From a virus: DNA of 58,317 bases. The stretch lies in the IMG/VR virus record IMGVR_UViG_3300037323_000213, positions 1 to 58,317 of that record. The stretch is one strand, 5' to 3'. This document shows, piece by piece, positions 26,527 through 35,384 of this stretch; position 1 is the first letter of the stretch; each line of letters starts with the position of its first letter. The translations under genes and the position numbers were made by a program. A model generated the notes under the pieces. That model was given only the letters and a program-made list of their open reading frames with translations. It ran no database searches and was not told the origin of the DNA.

Positions 26527-27975
26527 ATGGCCGTCAATGACATCCCCTTTAACATCGATTTGCTGCAAATCAACGACGAGGACATCAAGCGCATTCGAGC
26601 TGTAACCTCCCTTGATACCTTTGAGGGCGTCACAAAGAACTTTCACCCCGATGGGCTTTTCTCCACGACCACGTTTGGCGTGGCCGGCTCAGATGCGCGC
26701 TATTTGCGCTACGGCTACATTGACTTGAAGTTGCCGGTGATCCATCCCACCATCTACAAGTCCCTGATGGGCTTGCGCAGCTTGTACAGCGACATCTTGG
26801 CGAGCCGAGAGTTTGTGCGCTGGGATGCCAACTTGGCTGACTTCGTCAAGTCCGACGTGGTCGATGGCTACACGGGGTACGCGTACTTCATTGAGCACTG
26901 GCACAAAATCGAGTTCGAGCAGCGCCCAAGCGTCAAGCGCGAGCAAGCAGTCGCGTTCATCGACAAGTACCGAGACAAATCGATGGTTCAGCGCGTGCTC
27001 GTGATCCCCGCGTCCTTAAGAGACCTGGAGATCGATGACAACGGGCGCGAGAGCTCAGACGAGATCAACGCGCTTTACTACAAGCTGATTGCCATCTCCA
27101 ACACCATCAACTTGGCCACCATCAAGGTGAGCCCAGAGGCGTACAACAGCCAGCGCGTGTCCCTGCAAAATACCTTCAACGAGGTCTACGAGTACTTGGC
27201 CGCCATCGTAGAAGGTAAGAAAAACCTGATGATGGGCAAGTGGGCGTCTCGCAAAATCTTCAACGGCACGCGAAACGTGATCACCGCCATGGGCACGGTC
27301 ACGCCCCACCTAGACGCCCCAGGCCACTTGGGCTTTAACGACACCGCAGTAGGTTTGTACCAAACGCTCAAAGCCATCTTGCCCGTGTCTCAGTACCAGC
27401 TGCGCTCTGGGTTCTTAAGCGAGGTGTTCACCTCACCCGGTGCCCCAGCGCTCTTGGTCAACAAGAAGACGCTGCAGTCCGAGCGCGTGCAGCTCAGAGC
27501 CGATGAGTACGACGCGTGGATGACCAACGAGGGGTTGGAAAAATTCATCACCTACTTCCAAGAAGACACGATACGCCACTCCTTTGTGAGCGTGGCAGAT
27601 CACTACGTGGGCTTGCTGTACCGAGGGCCAGACGCCACGTTCAAGTTGTTGCACGGCATCGATGAGCTCCCACCGGGGAGGAACAAGGAGGACTGCAGAC
27701 CCCTTACAAGGGCGGAGCTGCTCTACACGGCCATCTACAAAGTGGCCAACAAGTACCCGTGCTTCTTGACCCGCTACCCCGTTGGGGGCATAGGCAGCAT
27801 CTACCCGAGCAACACGTTTCTAAAGACGACGGTCAAAACCGTCGTCTTGCAAGAACTCGGAGAGGACTGGAAGCCGCTTGGGGAGGGACACATCGCCTAC
27901 GAGTTCCCCACGGACACCAACTTCTTTAACTCCATCTCACCCCACTCGTCTCGACTGGCCATGCTCGGAGCGGAT
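26527..27975 (+). CDS. RNA polymerase beta' N-terminal part, exon 1
   Basis: This is exon 1 (483 codons) of a gene whose spliced product is 539 aa: exon 1, a 12-nt exon 2 at 28611-28622, and exon 3 at 28983-29141. ATG 26527 has AAGGAGAAAA upstream. Residues ~235-255 (MMGKWASRKIFNGTRNVITA) match the beta' block G-x-x-x-x-N-L-x-G-K-R-V-D-Y-S-x-R-S-V-I. KYPCFLTRYPVGGIGSIYPS matches the N-R-A-P-T-L-H-R segment, and HSSRLAMLGAD begins the active-site loop. The exon ends exactly after the first catalytic Asp; unspliced RNA would add only R-I and stop. The beta' C-terminal half is not in this window. Proximity to virion genes suggests a virion-packaged early polymerase, by inference. Confidence 0.85.
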
Positions 27976-28610
27976 CGTATTTGACGATTAGATAGCTTTT
28001 TAACTGTTTGATACTTGTGTTATGTGGGGAAAGTCAACTTAACAGAAAGTACAGGCATGCTAGAGAAAAACAAACAAATGGACGGGTTCATTCGGATACC
28101 ACTGACCTCAAATCGATATTGCATGTCCTTAGCGGGCAAGGTCAGGGGGGAGAAGATGGCAAAGACGTGTTCAAACCCTGCACGAAGATGGAGAGCTACA
28201 CGCTGCGCTCCACTTGTTTGTTTTTCTTAAATTGTCAAGTTTTGTCCTCACAGGCCGAAATGCCTGTGAGATTCTTCCTTAATTGCTGGAACCCCTCGTT
28301 AGACCACTGAACCTAAGCGGAGCATGAAAATGCACACGTGTCGCAAGACAGGTTTGAAAATCAGTGGGTAGAGGCAACCGTGGACCCAAGGTCCCTTTAG
28401 CAGCTGATGCCCTAAACGCTTGACCGCGCATGGGCCGAGTTCAACGACTAACCCCCACGCAGGGTGTAGGGGCCTAGTGGCCTCGAAACAGGAAGCCTCC
28501 CACGCTGGCCCAGGCCAGCAGGAGGAAGATATAGTCTGGTCTGCATGGAGACATGCAGCTGCCCGCTTGGCGGGCAGCGGTGAGCGTCACGCCCTCACTG
28601 GAACACCACG
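27976..28610 (+). ncRNA. Group I intron 1 in beta' (635 nt, with decayed homing endonuclease)
   Basis: Exon 1 ends GGAU; the guide GUCC at 28244-28247 pairs with it, putting U.G at the splice site, and UUUGAC/GUCAAG (28234-28239) extends the P1 helix. The core follows: P-type TTAATTGCTGG near 28278, R-type GTTCAACGACTA at 28439-28450, S-type AAGATATAGTCT at 28526-28537, and a final G after CACCAC. These are the hallmarks of group IA introns. The P1 loop holds a short open frame (28060-28230) with GFIRIPLTSNRYCMSLAGKV, a remnant of a NUMOD4-type endonuclease. Both splice sites restore the beta' frame exactly. Confidence 0.85.
28060..28230 (+). pseudogene. Remnant of intron homing endonuclease (NUMOD4 fragment)
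   Basis: The frame beginning MLEKNKQMDGFIRIP resembles the N-terminus of the intact endonuclease at 32902-33900 (DDFELVKIPGYSSYCVNRMG): same spacing of the I-P, Y-C and G-x-V residues. It stops after about 55 residues, with no HNH motif. It sits in the same P1 loop position as the intact gene in the beta intron, so it is most simply a deleted copy. Confidence 0.6.
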
Positions 28611-28622
28611 TTCGACGGAGAT
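28611..28622 (+). CDS. 12-nt micro-exon of beta' encoding F-D-G-D
   Basis: The sequence TTCGACGGAGAT encodes Phe-Asp-Gly-Asp. Joined to exon 1 (LGAD) and exon 3 (TASLSIVYTDEA) it yields LGADFDGDTASLSIVYTDEA, the catalytic magnesium-binding loop of RNAP beta' (bacterial N-A-D-F-D-G-D). It is exactly four codons and in phase on both sides. Its last six bases, GGAGAU, also form the P1 helix of the downstream intron. Without it the polymerase would lack two of three catalytic Asp. Confidence 0.88.
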
Positions 28623-28982
28623 GGACTGCCGCGTCTCCCTAGCCCGAAATGGTTAGTAAAATAATTTCTCTAATTGTCTGGAACCTCTCGCCAAACCACT
28701 GAACCCAAGCGGAGCATGAAAATGCACACGTGCTGCAAAGCAGGTTTGAAAATACAGTGGGTAGAGACAATCAGCAGCCAAGCCCCTGCCTATCGTCGGG
28801 AGACGAGAGATGGGGAAGGTTCAACGACTACTCGAAAGAGGTACACTCAAGTGAGTGGAAATGGGAAACACCCCACCCGCCCACAGGCGCGGGGTGAAGA
28901 TATAGTCTGGTCTGCGCGCAGACGCGCAGCAGCCTTCTTTGCAAGGCGAGACGGGTCTAACGAGCCTGTCTGAACACCAACG
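28623..28982 (+). ncRNA. Group I intron 2 in beta' (360 nt, no endonuclease)
   Basis: The exon end GGAGAU pairs with GUCUCC at 28633-28638 (six pairs, U.G at the splice site; loop of 10 nt). The core motifs are TAATTGTCTGG at 28671-28681, GTTCAACGACTA at 28819-28830, AAGATATAGTCT at 28897-28908, and a terminal G at 28982 after CACCAAC. Long stretches (such as GCGGAGCATGAAAATGCACA) are shared with intron 1, so the two are duplicates or sister insertions. It is close to the minimum size for this class and has no open reading frame. Confidence 0.87.
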
Positions 28983-29141
28983 ACCGCATCGCTCTCAATC
29001 GTCTACACCGATGAGGCGATAGAGGAGTGCAAAACCTTCTTTACCAAAAAGGCCTGCTACGTGAACACCGATGGCAGTTTCATCAACAACCTAAACGTCG
29101 ACACAATTGACTTTGTGCTGCGCAACATGACTGGCCCCTAA
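28983..29141 (+). CDS. RNA polymerase beta' N-terminal part, exon 3
   Basis: Exon 3 gives TASLSIVYTDEAIEECKTFF...NMTGP and stops at TAA 29139-29141, only 6 nt before the beta start. It completes the active-site loop after F-D-G-D and the following conserved strand/helix. It has no start codon of its own and would look like non-coding DNA without the intron model. The short tail after the catalytic loop shows that beta' is split here into separate N- and C-terminal polypeptides, as in phiKZ-like phages. Confidence 0.85.
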   Translation, partial: TASLSIVYTDEAIEECKTFFTKKACYVNTDGSFINNLNVDTIDFVLRNMTGP

Positions 29142-29147
29142 ACGACC

Positions 29148-30929
29148 ATGGCCCTCCTCACCTACCCCGCCTTTTACCGCCGCTTTGGGGTACGCACCAT
29201 CGCTCAGGTCGCAGCACCTCCCACGACCGACCTGAGCTTGCTGAACCTGCCTATGAGTGCGGTGTACCACTACGTCACCTACGACGGCGTAGAACTCGGG
29301 CCACCCTCGGATGACTACTTGTTTCGCCACATCACCAAGCCCATCTTGGTGGGGCATGTCTTGGAGCTCGCCGAGGACAAGGGCAACCCCCGCAAGCTCG
29401 GTGTGAACGTGCAAGCCTTGGTGCGCGACTATCACGCGCGCCACCGCAGGACCCGCCCACTGCGCAGCTTAGAAGTCGCTGACCGAGATAAGACCACCCT
29501 GCTCGTGTACAACTACTGCTTGCTGGCCAAGAACCAGCGCTACGTGCGCAGCTTCTTCACCGAGTACTACAAGTGGTACAACCAGTTCTCCACCGTCATG
29601 CAAACGCTGGCCAGCGTGGCAGCACTCTCTGAGCGCCAGCAGTTCTTGATGCTAAGAGTTCCCGCTGTCATCCCAAGCATGCAGCAGCTGGGCATGGCAA
29701 GCGGCACGATCAACCAAGCCACTTTGAAGACACTGAGGGGCGAGGACGCCTACGTGTTCTTGGAGCTGTGGAAGTGGCTAAGCGCAGAGCGCGCCAGCAG
29801 CTTGTTCTCCAAGATCCCGGCGAACAAACTGCAGCAAATCAACTTGGTCTACCAAGAGAGCGCAAAGTGGTGCACGATCAACCTGGGCGTGCTCAACAGC
29901 TTTCGAGACAACAAGGACGACCCGCTCCTGGCTGAGTACCTAACGCCCGCCAAGCAAGTGATCGATGCCACGCAGCTGCAAAAGCGCGTGGTGCGCATGC
30001 TGATGACGCTGATGGAGGTAAGGACACTGACTGCCAACGCGGGCGAGGACGCTGAGCTGGGTGTGGGTGCACCCACACCATCCAAGCTGGCCCAAAAGCT
30101 AAGCACTGACACGGATGAGGACGAGCTCGGTGAGCGCGCCAGTGAGTTCACCGACGTGCCAGGTCAAAACACGGGCTTTGAGGACGAGGAGGACCAAGCG
30201 CTTAACCTGCCCCAGGAGCAAGCAGCGCTGGCCACCGTGGACGCAGACATCCAACTCGATGAGGACGATGAGGGCGCACAGGCGCGCATCTTGGCTGAGG
30301 ACGCCCAGCTCGATGAGGACTTGGCTCAGTTAAACGAGATCGCGCGGCGCCAAGAGAGTCAGACCAGTGAGGACGAGGCACCCTTGGCCGAGGTGATTTT
30401 GGAGGCCAAAGACACCAGCTTGGAAGACGGCATCCTCTTTGTGTGCGACCGCTTGGCCGATGACGGCTTGCTCTCAGCAGCGGAGTACCGCCGGTTCACA
30501 AAACTGGCCAATGCCTACAAGAGCCTAAGCGCCCCAGACGGCAAAAGCACGCTGGAGGAATTCATCAAGATCCCCCCAGAGGTGCTGAAGATCACCGGCT
30601 CATCCAGCGTGCCTGACTCCACGAGCGTCTTGGACAAAACCATGCTCAAGAGCAGTTTGCTCGACTTTGATCAGCGCTACATCGAGCAGGTGATGGCCAA
30701 GGACACCGCTGCCTTTGTGCTCAACGTGCAAAAGGCAGGCGTTGCTGTTACGGGCTACAAAGTCGAGCGGGTCGATGATGTCTTGGGTGGCTACGAGATG
30801 CACAGCCTGCGCCTAGCACCCGTGGTCGGTGTGCCCTCCACGCTGCGCTTTAAGTTACCAATCGTGCAGGCCGATGGCACTTACTCGTCTAATGGGGTTC
30901 GCTACCGCCTCAGGAAACAACGCGGCGAT
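29148..30929 (+). CDS. RNA polymerase beta, exon 1
   Basis: This is exon 1 (594 codons) of a beta gene whose spliced product is 1,443 aa: 29148-30929, 31412-32842, 34266-35384. ATG 29148 lies 6 nt after the beta' stop. The exon holds the N-terminal lobe, then an extremely acidic, probably disordered insertion at about residues 310-430 (DTDEDELGERASEFTD, LDEDDEGAQARILAEDAQLD), then the fork region ending GTYSSNGVRYRLRKQRGD. This parallels bacterial I-N-G-T-E-R-V-I-V-S-Q-L. Unspliced, it would terminate at TAA immediately after the last Asp. Whether the polymerase is virion-packaged is not shown by sequence alone. Confidence 0.85.
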
Positions 30930-31411
30930 TAAAACCCCCCTGTGATGTGCTAAAAGGCATGCCTCAGGAAACAGGTCGCCGTACCGCAGAAATGCGGTAC
31001 TAGAAAACCTACCTAACTGCGGGAAAACGTCTACAATCTTGCTGGCTACCACTTGCGCGCAGAAACGCAGCGCAACACCTGTGGAGATAACGCTCCTCAT
31101 CAGGCACGGTGAAAACGCCAGTCCAAGAGACATGATCCGCAACGAAGGCGCTAAGGACCCATAGGTCTAAGCGCTGTGTTCAGAGGCCATCGAAAGCTAA
31201 TTGCGCAGAAACTGCGCATAATCACACCGGTCTAAAATCTGGTGGTGGCTTGGCAACAAGCCATTAAAGCGAGTAGAGTAGGGCGCGCTCTTATCCAGCG
31301 CGTGATCGAGAGATCGCAAGGCTTTTATTGGCCTTGAGCCGAAACGGTAGGCACCCTACCTCCCCCTTTGCGGGGGAGCGGGTGGTGATATGGTCCACTT
31401 TGGATGGGGTG
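30930..31411 (+). ncRNA. Group I intron in beta, first position (482 nt)
   Basis: Exon end GCGGCGAU pairs with GUCGCCGU (30975-30982) in an 8-bp P1 with U.G at the splice site. Downstream are CTAACTGCGGGAAAACG (P/Q-like), GTTCAGAGGCCAT at 31178-31190 (R-like), GATATGGTCC near 31387 (S-like), and a final G at 31411. Joining gives QRGD-LPIRKTAP in frame. The core differs from the other three introns, so it is from another group I lineage. It has no open reading frame of note. Confidence 0.75.
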
Positions 31412-32842
31412 CTCCCCATTCGCAAAACAGCCCCAGCAAAGGTGTCGCTCACGTCGTACTACGGCAAAGCGTTCATCAACCGAGGCAAGCGCAAAACGGA
31501 CGACTACGGCTACTGGCTGCAGTGCCAGGTGATCGCAAAGGGCCTGGACCCGCTGGAGAGATCAATCACCGAGCTGGTTGCAGACAATGTGTTCGATCCC
31601 ACCGCAGCAGTCCCTCGGTGCTTTAGCGCCATCGCGGTGGTGGCCAAAAGCTTGGTGGCCCGAGGCTACCAGCTCAACTTTTCTTTGGCCGAGAAGCAGC
31701 AGCTCTACCCGCCCGAGGCCATCGCGGCGCTTGAGAAAAACGGCTCGGTGCTGCTGGGCAAGAACGCGCTGGGTGGCTTCTTGGTGCTCGACACAGCAGG
31801 CACCGTGTACACCGTGCAGGACAAGGAGCTCGTACCCTTTGGCAGCTTGGAGTCTTTTTTGAACATCGACTTGCAACTCGCCCCCGTGGAGTCAGCCGGT
31901 GTCGTGGTGTTTGGTAAAGAGATTCCCATTGGTGTCGTGCTGGGCTACAACTTGGGCTTTGACAAGTTGCTGCGCCTGTTGAAAGTGCAGCCACGGCGCG
32001 TGGCCGCTGGGGCAAGACTGAACTTGCAGTCTCACGAGTACGTGCTCACCTTCAGCGACGAGTCCCTCGTGTTCTCCCGAGACGACCGGTTTGCCTCGAT
32101 GGTGCTGGGTGGGTTTACCACCTACCACCGAACGATCAAGCTCTTTAGCGTGCACAGCTTTGATAAGCGAGGCGTGTACCTAAACGTGCTAGAAGCCAAC
32201 AACCTGGGCACGCGCTACATCCGAGAGCTCGATTTGATGTACCGCATGTTTGTGGACCCCATCACGCGCGACTTGCTCGTGGAGATGAAGGAGCCCACGA
32301 CGTTCCAAGGCCTGTTGCTCAGAGCGTGTGAGATGCTGCTCGATGACAACACGCCCATGGAGCTGGACCCCGCGTTCATGCGCATCAAGGGCTACGAGCG
32401 CATGAGTGGGGCGGTCTACACCGAGCTCATCCAGTCGCTGCGCGCGCACAACGGGCGCTTGGGCAAGTCAAACGCACCAATTGAGATGAACCCCTACGCG
32501 GTGTGGAAACGCATCTCTGAGGACCCCTCCAAGGCCCAGGTAAGCGAGATCAACCCGATCAAGGAGCTCAAAGAGTTGGAGGCGGTCACGTTTGGGGGCA
32601 CTGGGGGGCGCAGCTCGCGCTCCATGGTAAAGCTCACGCGCGCGTACCACCCCAACGACATGGGCACCATCTCAGAGTCCACCGTGGACAGCTCAGACGT
32701 GGGTATCAACATCTTCATGTCACCTGACCCGCAGTTCACTTCGCTTCGCGGCATCTCCAAGCGCTACGACTTTGACAAAGGTGGTGCAACATCTCTCTTG
32801 TCAACCTCCGCCCTCTTGAGCGTAGGATCTGACAGAGATGAT
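31412..32842 (+). CDS. RNA polymerase beta, exon 2
   Basis: Exon 2 (477 codons; residues ~595-1071 of the spliced protein) begins LPIRKTAPAKVSLTSYYGKA and ends ...LSVGSDRDD. It carries the central beta domains and, near its end, FMSPDPQFTSLRGISKRYDF, which leads to the conserved D-D-x-x-R segment of the active centre. An upstream ATG/TTG-type start at 31328 lies within the intron and is not a real start. The exon has no start codon of its own. Confidence 0.85.
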
Positions 32843-34265
32843 TAACAAACTGTACTGCTATGAACTAAACACACCTATTCTATGAACAAAAGGAGTACGT
32901 GATGAATAGTGTTAAAACTGAAGATGATTTTGAGTTGGTAAAGATCCCAGGATACAGCAGCTACTGTGTCAACCGAATGGGCCAAGTGTTTAACGTCTTG
33001 AGCCAATCCTTTCTTTCTGGCAGCGTGAATCCAGCGGGTTACAGAAATTTCCGATTAAAGAGCGACGTAGGCTATACGCTTACATGGGGACGGCATCGAT
33101 TGCTCGGCTACGTTTTCATTCCGTGCCAAGGCACCATTGAGGGATTGATCATCAATCACAAAAATGGTATCAAAGGGGACGATCGTTTAGATAATTTGGA
33201 ATGGGTGACTTATCAAGAAAATGCTGAACATGCTGGTGCAATGGGGTTAACCTCGAAGTGCCTGCCTGTGTCGGTGCGCAACGTTGATACTGGGGAAGTA
33301 GACAATTATCCCAGTATAGTCGAGTGCGCACGAGACTTGGGCGTGTCAAAGGACACGATCAATTGGCGTGTAAAGATAGGTGAGTCAAGGGTTTTTCCAG
33401 AAAGAAAGCAATACCGGTTGTTTCAACCCGATGCACCCTGGTGCATCGTTGAAGGCACTGACAAGGCGTTGGTTAAAAACGGTTTGCGCAAAGCCGCTAA
33501 CTTGAGAAACGTCCTAGACGGAACAACAAAATCGTTTGCTATGGTGAGTGATTTAGCGCGGTGGATTGACGTACCGGACTCAACCATTACGCTCTGGATC
33601 AACCAACCTGATCAACCGGTGCTGCCTGGGTTCATTCAAATCAAGTGGGCGTGTGACAAAACCCCGTGGCGTGAGGTAATCGATCCATACTTAGAAGCTG
33701 CTCGTTATTCGAAAAAGCAGCCTGTGCGTATTGTTAACCGAGCCACTGGACAAGCAACAATCTTTGCTTCTTCCACGGATTGTTGCAGAGTCATGAACAT
33801 CAAGCCAACACTTTTAAATTACCGCTTAAAGTCAGCCGGGTCAACCGTATTTTCAGATAACCACACCTACGATAAATACCGAGGTGTTTCAGAGCAGTAA
33901 ACAGTTTATGGTCCCACAGGCTGGCAACGGTCTGATGGAATTTTCCTTAATTGACGGGGACATCCTCCAGAGCTTGCACCTACCAAACCACGTTCGGAAA
34001 CTGCGTGGTGGCCAGACTAACTCTCTGGGTACGGTAACAAAGGTGAAGATTGGATAATCCGCAGCGAAGCTCCTACCTATGGCTGTGAAGCCAGACACGG
34101 AGAACGTTCAACGACTATGGCCTTATCAGCCAGTACCTGTCAAAGCGACGGGGAAACAGGAAACTCCCCTAGGTGGGAGAAGATATAGTCTCGACATCCG
34201 AGGGAAATCCCGGAGCAGTGCTTTGGTGCACGGGGACTGGTAGGCGGCCAGTTTCGAAGACATCG
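32843..34265 (+). ncRNA. Group I intron in beta, second position (1,423 nt, carries HNH endonuclease)
   Basis: The splice site GAU|UAAC pairs with GGUC at 33910-33913, and AAACUGU (32847-32853) with ACAGUUU (33901-33907), so the whole endonuclease gene sits in the P1 loop. Core motifs: CCTTAATTGACGGGGAC near 33945, GTTCAACGACTA at 34106-34117, AAGATATAGTCT at 34180-34191, and final G at 34265. Joining gives DRDD-PKRVNFIAIQ, the beta D-D-x-x-R block, in frame. Core and layout match intron 1 of beta'. The P1 pairing is weaker than in the other introns. Confidence 0.82.
32902..33900 (+). CDS. Intron-encoded HNH homing endonuclease with NUMOD4/NUMOD1 modules
   Basis: ATG 32902 has AGGAG 6 nt upstream; a GTG three bases earlier is possible. 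Domains of the 332-aa protein: NUMOD4 at ~8-40 (FELVKIPGYSSYCVNRMGQV); HNH at ~65-110 (HRLLGYVF, IINHKNGIKGDD, NLEWVTYQENAEHA); then three NUMOD1-like helix-turn-helix modules (SIVECARDLGVSKDTINWRV, MVSDLARWIDVPDSTITLWI, SSTDCCRVMNIKPTLLNYRL). Such enzymes cut intron-less alleles and spread the intron. The base composition is more AT-rich than the flanking polymerase exons, consistent with separate origin. It lies wholly in the P1 loop of the beta intron. Confidence 0.9.
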   Translation: MNSVKTEDDFELVKIPGYSSYCVNRMGQVFNVLSQSFLSGSVNPAGYRNFRLKSDVGYTLTWGRHRLLGYVFIPCQGTIEGLIINHKNGIKGDDRLDNLEWVTYQENAEHAGAMGLTSKCLPVSVRNVDTGEVDNYPSIVECARDLGVSKDTINWRVKIGESRVFPERKQYRLFQPDAPWCIVEGTDKALVKNGLRKAANLRNVLDGTTKSFAMVSDLARWIDVPDSTITLWINQPDQPVLPGFIQIKWACDKTPWREVIDPYLEAARYSKKQPVRIVNRATGQATIFASSTDCCRVMNIKPTLLNYRLKSAGSTVFSDNHTYDKYRGVSEQ

Positions 34266-35384
34266 CCCAAGAGAGTTAACTTCATCGCAATTCAGCAAGA
34301 GCACTCCATCTCTTGCGTAAGCTACAAGCAGTTCACGGTGCGCACGGGCTACGACAGCGTGATTGCTCACCGTACCTCCAGCATGTTTGCGTTCACCGCC
34401 AGAAAGCCCGGCACCGTGAGGTCCGTTGAGGCCAAGGGCATCATTGTGGACTACGACGATGAGACAGTACAAGGCTATGAGCTTGGGCGGCGCTACGGCA
34501 ACGCCGCAGGCCTCACGGTGGCGCACAACATCGTAAGCTCACTGCGGGTGGGCGATAAGGTGGCGGTGGGCGATGTGGTGTGCTACAACGACGGCTTCTT
34601 TGAGCCCGACTTCTTTAACCCCAAAGAGGTCGTATGGAAGAACGCCACCAACGTGAAGACCGTTTTGTGGGAGTCAGCGCAAACGCTCGAAGACGCCTCA
34701 CTCATCTCCAAGCGCGTGGGAGATAAGCTCAGCACGAAGATCACGAAGGTGAAGAACATCGTGCTTACGTTTGACCAAAGCATCTCGCGCTTGGTGAAGG
34801 TGGGCTCAGCGGTCGAGGCAGACACCATTTTATGCATCATCGAAGACGCCATCACCGCAGACAACAAGCTCTTTGATGAGCAGTCCTTGGACACGCTGCG
34901 CGCATTAAGCGCGCAGACGCCGCGCGCGCACGTCAAAGGCGTTGTTGAGAAGATCGAGGTGTTCTACCACGGTGACAAAGACGACATGTCTGAGCCACTC
35001 AAGGCGCTGGCGAGTAGCAGCGACAAAGAGCTCAAGCAGTTCGCCCAAGCCACGGCGAGGACGGTGTACACGGGCAGCGTGGATGGGGGCTTTCGCATCG
35101 AGGGCAACCCCCTCGTGCTGGACTCACTGGCGGTGCGCATCTACATCACCTCCACGGTGGGGGCGGGCTTGGGTGACAAGGGTGCTTTTTGCAACCAGCT
35201 CAAAACGGTGTTCTCCGAGGTGATGGATGACGACTTGATCAGTGAGAACGGCGACATCATCGATGCCGCCTTTGGGGGCACGTCCATTGCTGCGAGGATC
35301 GTCAACAGCCCAGACATTATCGGAACCACCAACACGCTCCTGAAGGTGATCACAAAGAAAGCGCTTGCGCTGTACCGAAGCTAG
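34266..35384 (+). CDS. RNA polymerase beta, exon 3
   Basis: Exon 3 (372 residues) begins PKRVNFIAIQQEHSISCVSY, completing D-D-P-K-R, which parallels bacterial H-D-D-A-N-R-A-L-M-G-A-N. Near the end, GAGLGDKGAFCNQLKTVFSE parallels V-G-D-K...N-K-G-V-I, and SENGDIIDAAFGGTSIAARI parallels D-E-N-G-T-P-V-D-I-V-L-N-P-L-G. The protein ends there with TAG; the RpoB C-terminal domain is missing and probably supplied by the gene at 9152-9820. An apparent start at 34173 lies in the intron. Confidence 0.85.
   Translation, partial: PKRVNFIAIQQEHSISCVSYKQFTVRTGYDSVIAHRTSSMFAFTARKPGTVRSVEAKGIIVDYDDETVQGYELGRRYGNAAGLTVAHNIVSSLRVGDKVAVGDVVCYNDGFFEPDFFNPKEVVWKNATNVKTVLWESAQTLEDASLISKRVGDKLSTKITKVKNIVLTFDQSISRLVKVGSAVEADTILCIIEDAITADNKLFDEQSLDTLRALSAQTPRAHVKGVVEKIEVFYHGDKDDMSEPLKALASSSDKELKQFAQATARTVYTGSVDGGFRIEGNPLVLDSLAVRIYITSTVGAGLGDKGAFCNQLKTVFSEVMDDDLISENGDIIDAAFGGTSIAARIVNSPDIIGTTNTLLKVITKKALALYRS

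Follow-up and report, generated by a model that had tools for sequence, protein, structure and literature searches.

Two predicted mobile group I introns in the virion-type RNA polymerase beta gene of a phiKZ-related jumbo phage fragment

Among phiKZ-like virion RNA polymerase genes, one intron case has been published, that of PhiPA3 gp210. Birkholz et al. (2024, PMC11620839) showed that this enzyme nicks alleles lacking the intron, behind a pair of conserved Asp codons of which the second corresponds to E. coli RpoB D675. Here we analysed a DNA stretch of 58.3 kb (hereafter the window), which is the entire virus record IMGVR_UViG_3300037323_000213, and its RNA polymerase beta gene is interrupted twice, at site 1 (intron 1) and site 2 (intron 2). 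Intron 2 lies at the same position as the PhiPA3 gp210 intron, after the second of the two Asp codons, and carries an orthologous HNH enzyme. However, the window beta is only 40% identical to that of PhiPA3 in exon 2, and PhiPA3 lacks the introns which the window has at site 1 and at two places in beta' (A and B). In Serratia phage 2050HW, the gp100-gp102 interruption is at the same site 2 and holds the closest endonuclease, but the record does not label it as an intron, and the site-1 intron is missing. IMG/VR contig 3300050144_000109 (L006) resembles the window in having an intron with a group I core at each of the two beta sites, although its site-2 intron of 335 nt is too short for an endonuclease and its beta' is uninterrupted. 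The SPO1-type introns (I-HmuI family) have the HNH/NUMOD architecture, the intron-borne ORF and the nicking homing model in common with intron 2, but in Pfam the window endonuclease resembles the I-HmuI NUMOD-like domain only weakly. SPO1-type introns also sit in a different host gene, that of DNA polymerase. One window intron is thus at an already known site and the other at a second, less described site; new here are a candidate exon-built 3' stem in most site-1 introns, and two beta' introns around a 12-nt FDGD exon. These results turn the single published case into a family-wide pattern, with phiKZ-like virion RNA polymerase genes as a recurrent intron target. They make testable how the introns choose and move between sites, how productive mRNA is made when the genes of one essential enzyme contain four to six introns, and whether co-infecting phages use the endonucleases as weapons against each other.

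The window genes include a homologue of the phiKZ vertex protein (PF25614), DUF7193 and two RNA polymerase genes, and the window was therefore assigned to a phiKZ-related jumbo phage as a fragment. Its beta gene belongs to phrog_3148 (RNA polymerase beta). Since PhiPA3 gp211/gp209 is the homologue of phiKZ gp178, and this homologue is named virion RNA polymerase in PMC11620839, we labelled the window beta virion-type. As shown in Table 1, the gene consists of three exons, and the reading frame behaves as a preliminary description of this DNA had claimed: a TAA stop (30930-30932) directly follows exon 1 and the frame resumes as LPIRKTAP at 31412, while another TAA at 32843 directly follows exon 2 and the frame resumes as PKRVNF at 34266. 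The spliced beta would have 594 + 477 + 372 = 1,443 aa, the length given in that description. The alignment with homologues, which that description had put forward as a check, showed that the exon 1/2 and exon 2/3 joins fit uninterrupted relatives (L004, L008, L009, L014 and others) with a zero-base gap, and the boundaries were placed at 30929|31412 and 32842|34266 on this basis. A PDB profile search with beta exon 2 gave no match.

Table 1 Features of the beta' and beta genes, in window coordinates.
Feature	Position	Strand	Evidence or remark
beta' intron A, between LGAD and FDGD, decayed endonuclease start	27976..28610	+	Rfam 28226-28558, E 1.9e-5; site-2 profile E 8e-34
beta' exon, 12 nt, TTCGACGGAGAT = FDGD	28611..28622	+	flanking-sequence spacing in homologues
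beta' intron B	28623..28982	+	Rfam RF00028 79.3 bits, E 2.4e-19
beta exon 1, 594 aa, ends ...YRLRKQRGD on codon GAU	29148..30929	+	phrog_3148 2-574, E 1.5e-138
P1 5' exon strand of intron 1, GCGGCGAU	30922..30929	+	pairs with 30975-30982, 8 bp, U.G at splice site
Group I intron 1, 482 nt, without ORF, beta site 1	30930..31411	+	same-site profile; Rfam; terminal G; 5' exon U
Internal guide sequence of intron 1, GUCGCCGU	30975..30982	+	covaries with exon across eight site-1 introns
P7 5' strand of intron 1, GGCCA	31185..31189	+	pairs with UGGUC 31391-31395; compensated against GACUA/UAGUC in L098 (same site)
Candidate hairpin across 3' splice site, P9 position: intron UGGAUGGGG 31401-31409 and exon CCCCAUUCG 31414-31422	31401..31422	+	pairing
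beta exon 2, 477 aa, LPIRK...GSDRDD	31412..32842	+	phrog_3148 575-1050, E 3.5e-181
Group I intron 2, 1,423 nt, ORF in P1 loop, beta site 2 (PhiPA3 gp210 site)	32843..34265	+	
P1 extension 5' arm of intron 2, AAACUGUACUGC	32847..32858	+	pairs with GCAGUAAACAGUUU 33894-33907; closes ORF-bearing loop; fold -24.8 kcal/mol (constrained)
HNH homing endonuclease gene, about 332 aa	32902..33900	+	Pfam HNH_3 2.3e-8, NUMOD1; HNH region conserved
Guide GUC of intron 2	33911..33913	+	pairs with exon GAU 32840-32842
beta exon 3, 372 aa, PKRVNF... to stop	34266..35384	+	phrog_3148 1048-1421, E 1.5e-149

Both inserts were compared by nhmmer with profiles of introns from the same site in other phages, the window being excluded. 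The profile of 8 other site-1 introns matched 30972-31409 (E 1.7e-79) and hardly anything else in the window, and the profile of 16 other site-2 introns matched 33905-34263 with E 2e-66. Against Rfam RF00028, intron 1 reached 28.9 bits (E 3e-4) and intron 2 reached 49.8 bits (33876-34213, E 1.6e-10), both below the curated cut-off of 50, a gathering score which is a score threshold and not a structural feature. Homologues at site 1 (L024, L082, L086, L020) and at site 2 (L013, L016) scored above this cut-off. We consider the sub-cut-off scores outweighed, because the homologue-based profiles settle the matter; the low values are probably due to long insertions and, for intron 1, to a stem shared with the exon. 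A conserved P3-P8 core with the P7 guanosine site is present, as indicated by the Rfam match and P7 covariation. Together, the profiles, the covariation of guides and core helices, and the precise intron-minus alleles support the identification of both beta interruptions as group I introns, in agreement with the preliminary description. That description had also reported core motifs shared with the beta' introns, and this applied to intron 2 only: the site-2 profile matched both beta' introns (E about 1e-33).

For intron 1, the P1 that had been proposed earlier, GCGGCGAU with GUCGCCGU, was recovered with its 8 bp. In 8 of 8 site-1 introns scanned, the guide was complementary to its own exon (GGCGAU/GUCGCC, GGGGAU/GUCCCC, GCGGAU/GUCCGC, GGGAGAU/GUCUCCC, AGUGGAU/GUCCACU); the core pattern of this guide search missed L006 at site 1 and L100 at site 2. 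The window guide pairs at 8 bases with its own exon and at 8 with that of L020, but forms just 3 pairs with each exon of the remaining six. The distance from guide to P3-P4 motif is 37 nt in 6/8, with L020 best at 39 nt and L098 at 16 nt. In the RNAalifold consensus of nine site-1 introns, 54 of the 91 pairs had at least one two-sided change, and the fold recovered helices read as P2, P3, P4-P6 and P8 plus extra stems between P7 and P3. P7 is absent from this nested fold, as expected of a pseudoknot. The last base of intron 1 (31411) is G, and so is that of all site-1 introns. By reading of the alignments, the extra pairing between P7 and P3 would suggest an IA-like subgroup. The site-2 profile matches intron 2 and the beta' introns, and intron 1 represents a separate lineage. 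Two site-1 introns, L020 (5092-6549) and L086 (5482-6621), encode DUF723 proteins and not HNH enzymes. It is thus probable that the introns of the two sites owe their mobility to different types of endonuclease.

The 3' end of intron 1 is short, with only 16 nt from P7 to the 3' splice site (31395 to 31411). The canonical P10 is weak at site 1, a point against the intron reading, and amounts to 1-2 bp by eye. Instead, the start of the 3' exon can pair with the end of the intron, giving in the window a candidate hairpin whose loop, UG|CU, has the splice site inside. Such an intron-exon hairpin of 6-9 contiguous bp can be formed in 8 of 9 site-1 introns; in L021 it is shorter and broken, and the L098 intron can also fold an internal hairpin. 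Compensatory changes were found at exon position 6 (GC, UA or CG, intron base first), position 7 (UA or AU) and position 9 (GC, AU, UA or GU). Own intron/exon pairs of site-1 introns folded with better energy than permuted pairs (p = 0.0002), and part of the signal could come from a few related introns. When site-2 introns were scanned for such a 3' exon stem, 0-4 pairs were obtained, none of the site-1 pattern. A literature search on stems built with the 3' exon found nothing. The site-1 introns may be a group I variant without a P9 hairpin of its own, in which the corresponding stem is built with the downstream exon, and we judge the chances for and against this reading to be about even. If true, the 3' splice site would lie in the loop of an intron-exon hairpin and both flanking exons would be read by base pairing, which would tie the site-1 intron to one coding site, adjusted to each host's codons.

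Intron 2 carries an intact HNH ORF, which the preliminary description had left unmentioned and which starts at GTG 32899 or, more likely, at ATG 32902 after AAAGGAG (32889-32895). The predicted protein has 48.6% identity to PhiPA3 gp210 over 313 aa and 50.2% to the closest one, Serratia phage 2050HW gp101, from the same insertion site. Sharing both the site and an orthologous HNH endonuclease, intron 2 is a new member of the published gp210 element. The ORF scan of introns missed some endonucleases, the window's own included, and its list is not a census. The ORF is enclosed by a P1 extension, whose 3' strand (GCAGUAAACAGUUU) includes the ORF's own stop codon, and a similar extension was seen in many other site-2 introns. 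The site-2 guide pairs with only three exon bases before this extension, a further point against the intron reading. In most site-2 introns scanned the GUC guide is found 29-33 nt before the core, its automatic choice being wrong or ambiguous in L016, L029 and L097. A six-pair P1 at site 2 (GAUGAU with GUCAUC) was not found, and was replaced by GAU/GUC plus the extension. The last base of intron 2 (34265) is G, as at the end of all ordinary site-2 introns.

We then considered the distribution in 84 non-redundant beta genes, taken from the best hits to the window. Site 1 was occupied in 9, site 2 in 18, site 2b (a second position about 11 nt downstream of site 2) in 8 and beta' in 12, frequencies which describe window-like loci and not the family at large, very divergent beta genes being missed by the exon-2-based retrieval. 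On the exon-2 tree, a quick tree with some long branches, the minimum changes were 8 for site 1, 15 for site 2, 6 for site 2b and 9 for beta', or about one per occurrence. The 5' exon ended in U in 9/9 occupied versus 36/83 empty alleles at site 1 (p 0.001), and in 18/18 versus 39/65 at site 2 (p 0.0004). The near-identical L007 and L008 (99.3% over 4,842 nt upstream, 100% over 4,694 nt downstream) differ by a 1,306-nt site-2 intron, present in L007 and absent from L008, with six base differences within the 108 nt upstream of the intron and two in the next 1,700 nt. This is the pattern that homing with one-sided co-conversion would leave; the alternative, intron loss by exact deletion, would leave the difference cluster unexplained.

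Split polymerase subunits are characteristic of jumbo phages of this kind (PMC7598289), and in the records of PhiPA3 and EL the beta pieces on either side of site 2 are annotated separately, so that beta could be truly split into three polypeptides, the intervening DNA being a freestanding endonuclease gene plus spacer. We regard this as extremely improbable. A group I core was detected in 47 of 47 interrupted alleles examined, by profiles for which some of these loci had served as training data; with the independent Rfam model, most of the alleles, though not every one, scored above the cut-off. Among these 47, none had beta split at these points with no intron core, and the true split was rejected on this ground. 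Phage 201phi2-1 (gp273/274) also has a group I core at site 2, and there the gene is annotated as one joined product, which was identified by mass spectrometry. Furthermore, the guide sequences follow their own exons, and uninterrupted alleles are more numerous than interrupted ones.

The low Rfam score of intron 1 and the decayed ORF in beta' intron A could also be taken as signs of dead group I introns in a decayed gene, but the pairings of the core, the guide sequences and the final G have been kept, the three exons are all open and conserved through 1,443 codons, and the HNH ORF is undamaged, which makes this reading very unlikely. A less remote idea, still an unlikely one, is that the introns are a regulatory switch, with splicing gated by translation or GTP, and not near-neutral mobile DNA. 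It would fit the stop codon directly after each 5' splice site, and splicing coupled to translation or GTP has been proposed for other phage introns (PMC11878797, PMC3984707). However, the introns are absent from most relatives (site 1: 75/84), so that a regulatory role is not conserved.

We are thus highly confident in a reading with two mobile group I introns which would remove themselves from the pre-mRNA to yield an uninterrupted 1,443-aa beta, and of which intron 2 would spread by homing. The data above show the identity and boundaries of the introns, their conserved pairings, the orthology of the endonuclease, precise empty alleles and a patchy distribution; splicing, nicking by the window's HNH enzyme and the route of intron arrival are what we infer from the sequence. 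Each intron would fold in the pre-mRNA, pair its guide with the upstream exon end (...GAU) and excise itself by the usual two guanosine-initiated steps, after which the full beta could be translated; in unspliced RNA, translation would end at the stop codon behind the 5' splice site. A functional beta would then depend on splicing, as the preliminary description proposed. As an orthologue of PhiPA3 gp210, the HNH enzyme of intron 2 should nick the conserved Asp-Asp site of alleles that lack the intron, and the intron would be copied in during repair. Intron 1 has no ORF itself and belongs to a lineage in which two relatives carry a different ORF type (DUF723); it probably arrived by the same homing route and lost its ORF afterwards, or else it is mobilised in trans.

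All four introns of the window (beta' A and B, beta 1 and 2) follow the codon GAU, and their guides begin with GUC. A further site in beta exon 3 (GxGD|KGVF), used in L021 (about 10006) and L068 (about 10995), is also after GAU, whereas the site 2b insertion is not. Related phages reuse six or more insertion points in the beta'/beta pair, five of which lie directly after the Asp codon GAU. In L021 (3824-10500), six Rfam-supported introns are spread over beta'/beta, five above the cut-off and that of site 1 at 47.2 bits. The earlier view of the polymerase genes as an intron hot spot agrees with these results. So does the proposed preference for conserved codons, since the window's four sites and the exon 3 site all follow GAU, pointing to Asp codons at catalytic or invariant positions as recurrent targets. 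The preliminary description had further placed the introns in active-centre blocks of beta. This holds for beta site 2, by the D675 equivalence (PMC11620839), and likewise for the beta' sites, but site 1 is only weakly placed there, aligning just after E. coli beta residue 146 at an hhalign probability of 1.7%. The hhalign comparisons of three profiles with E. coli RpoB were all poor (probability 0.6 to 7%), with exon 3 looking plausible.

In beta', introns A and B flank an exon of 12 nt which encodes FDGD, part of the NADFDGD-type catalytic motif (window 27964-28991). The spacing between the flanking sequences was exactly 12 nt in 72 uninterrupted beta' homologues, with FDGD in all those printed. 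The last six bases of this exon are the P1 strand of intron B, GGAGAU (28617-28622) pairing with GUCUCC (28633-28638). L021 has the same paired-intron arrangement around a 12-nt exon in beta', and in its beta an 11-nt exon lies between sites 2 and 2b. A literature search for small exons flanked by group I introns yielded no more than a passing remark on phage phiNIT1 (PMC11878797).

Within beta' intron A, positions 28008-28310 contain an apparent decayed endonuclease start (FIRIPLTSNRYCMSLAGKV), which is full length in L005 and L068; a Pfam search of the window's decayed copy gave no match. At the 3' end of the same intron, 38 nt (28526-28563) are identical to rV5-type phage records, and apart from this match to the V5-type terminase region, no near-DNA relatives of the window were found in the phage collection. 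In V5, the matching 38 nt fall within a terminase gene annotated as three joined pieces, and the identity suggests an exchange of introns between unrelated phages.
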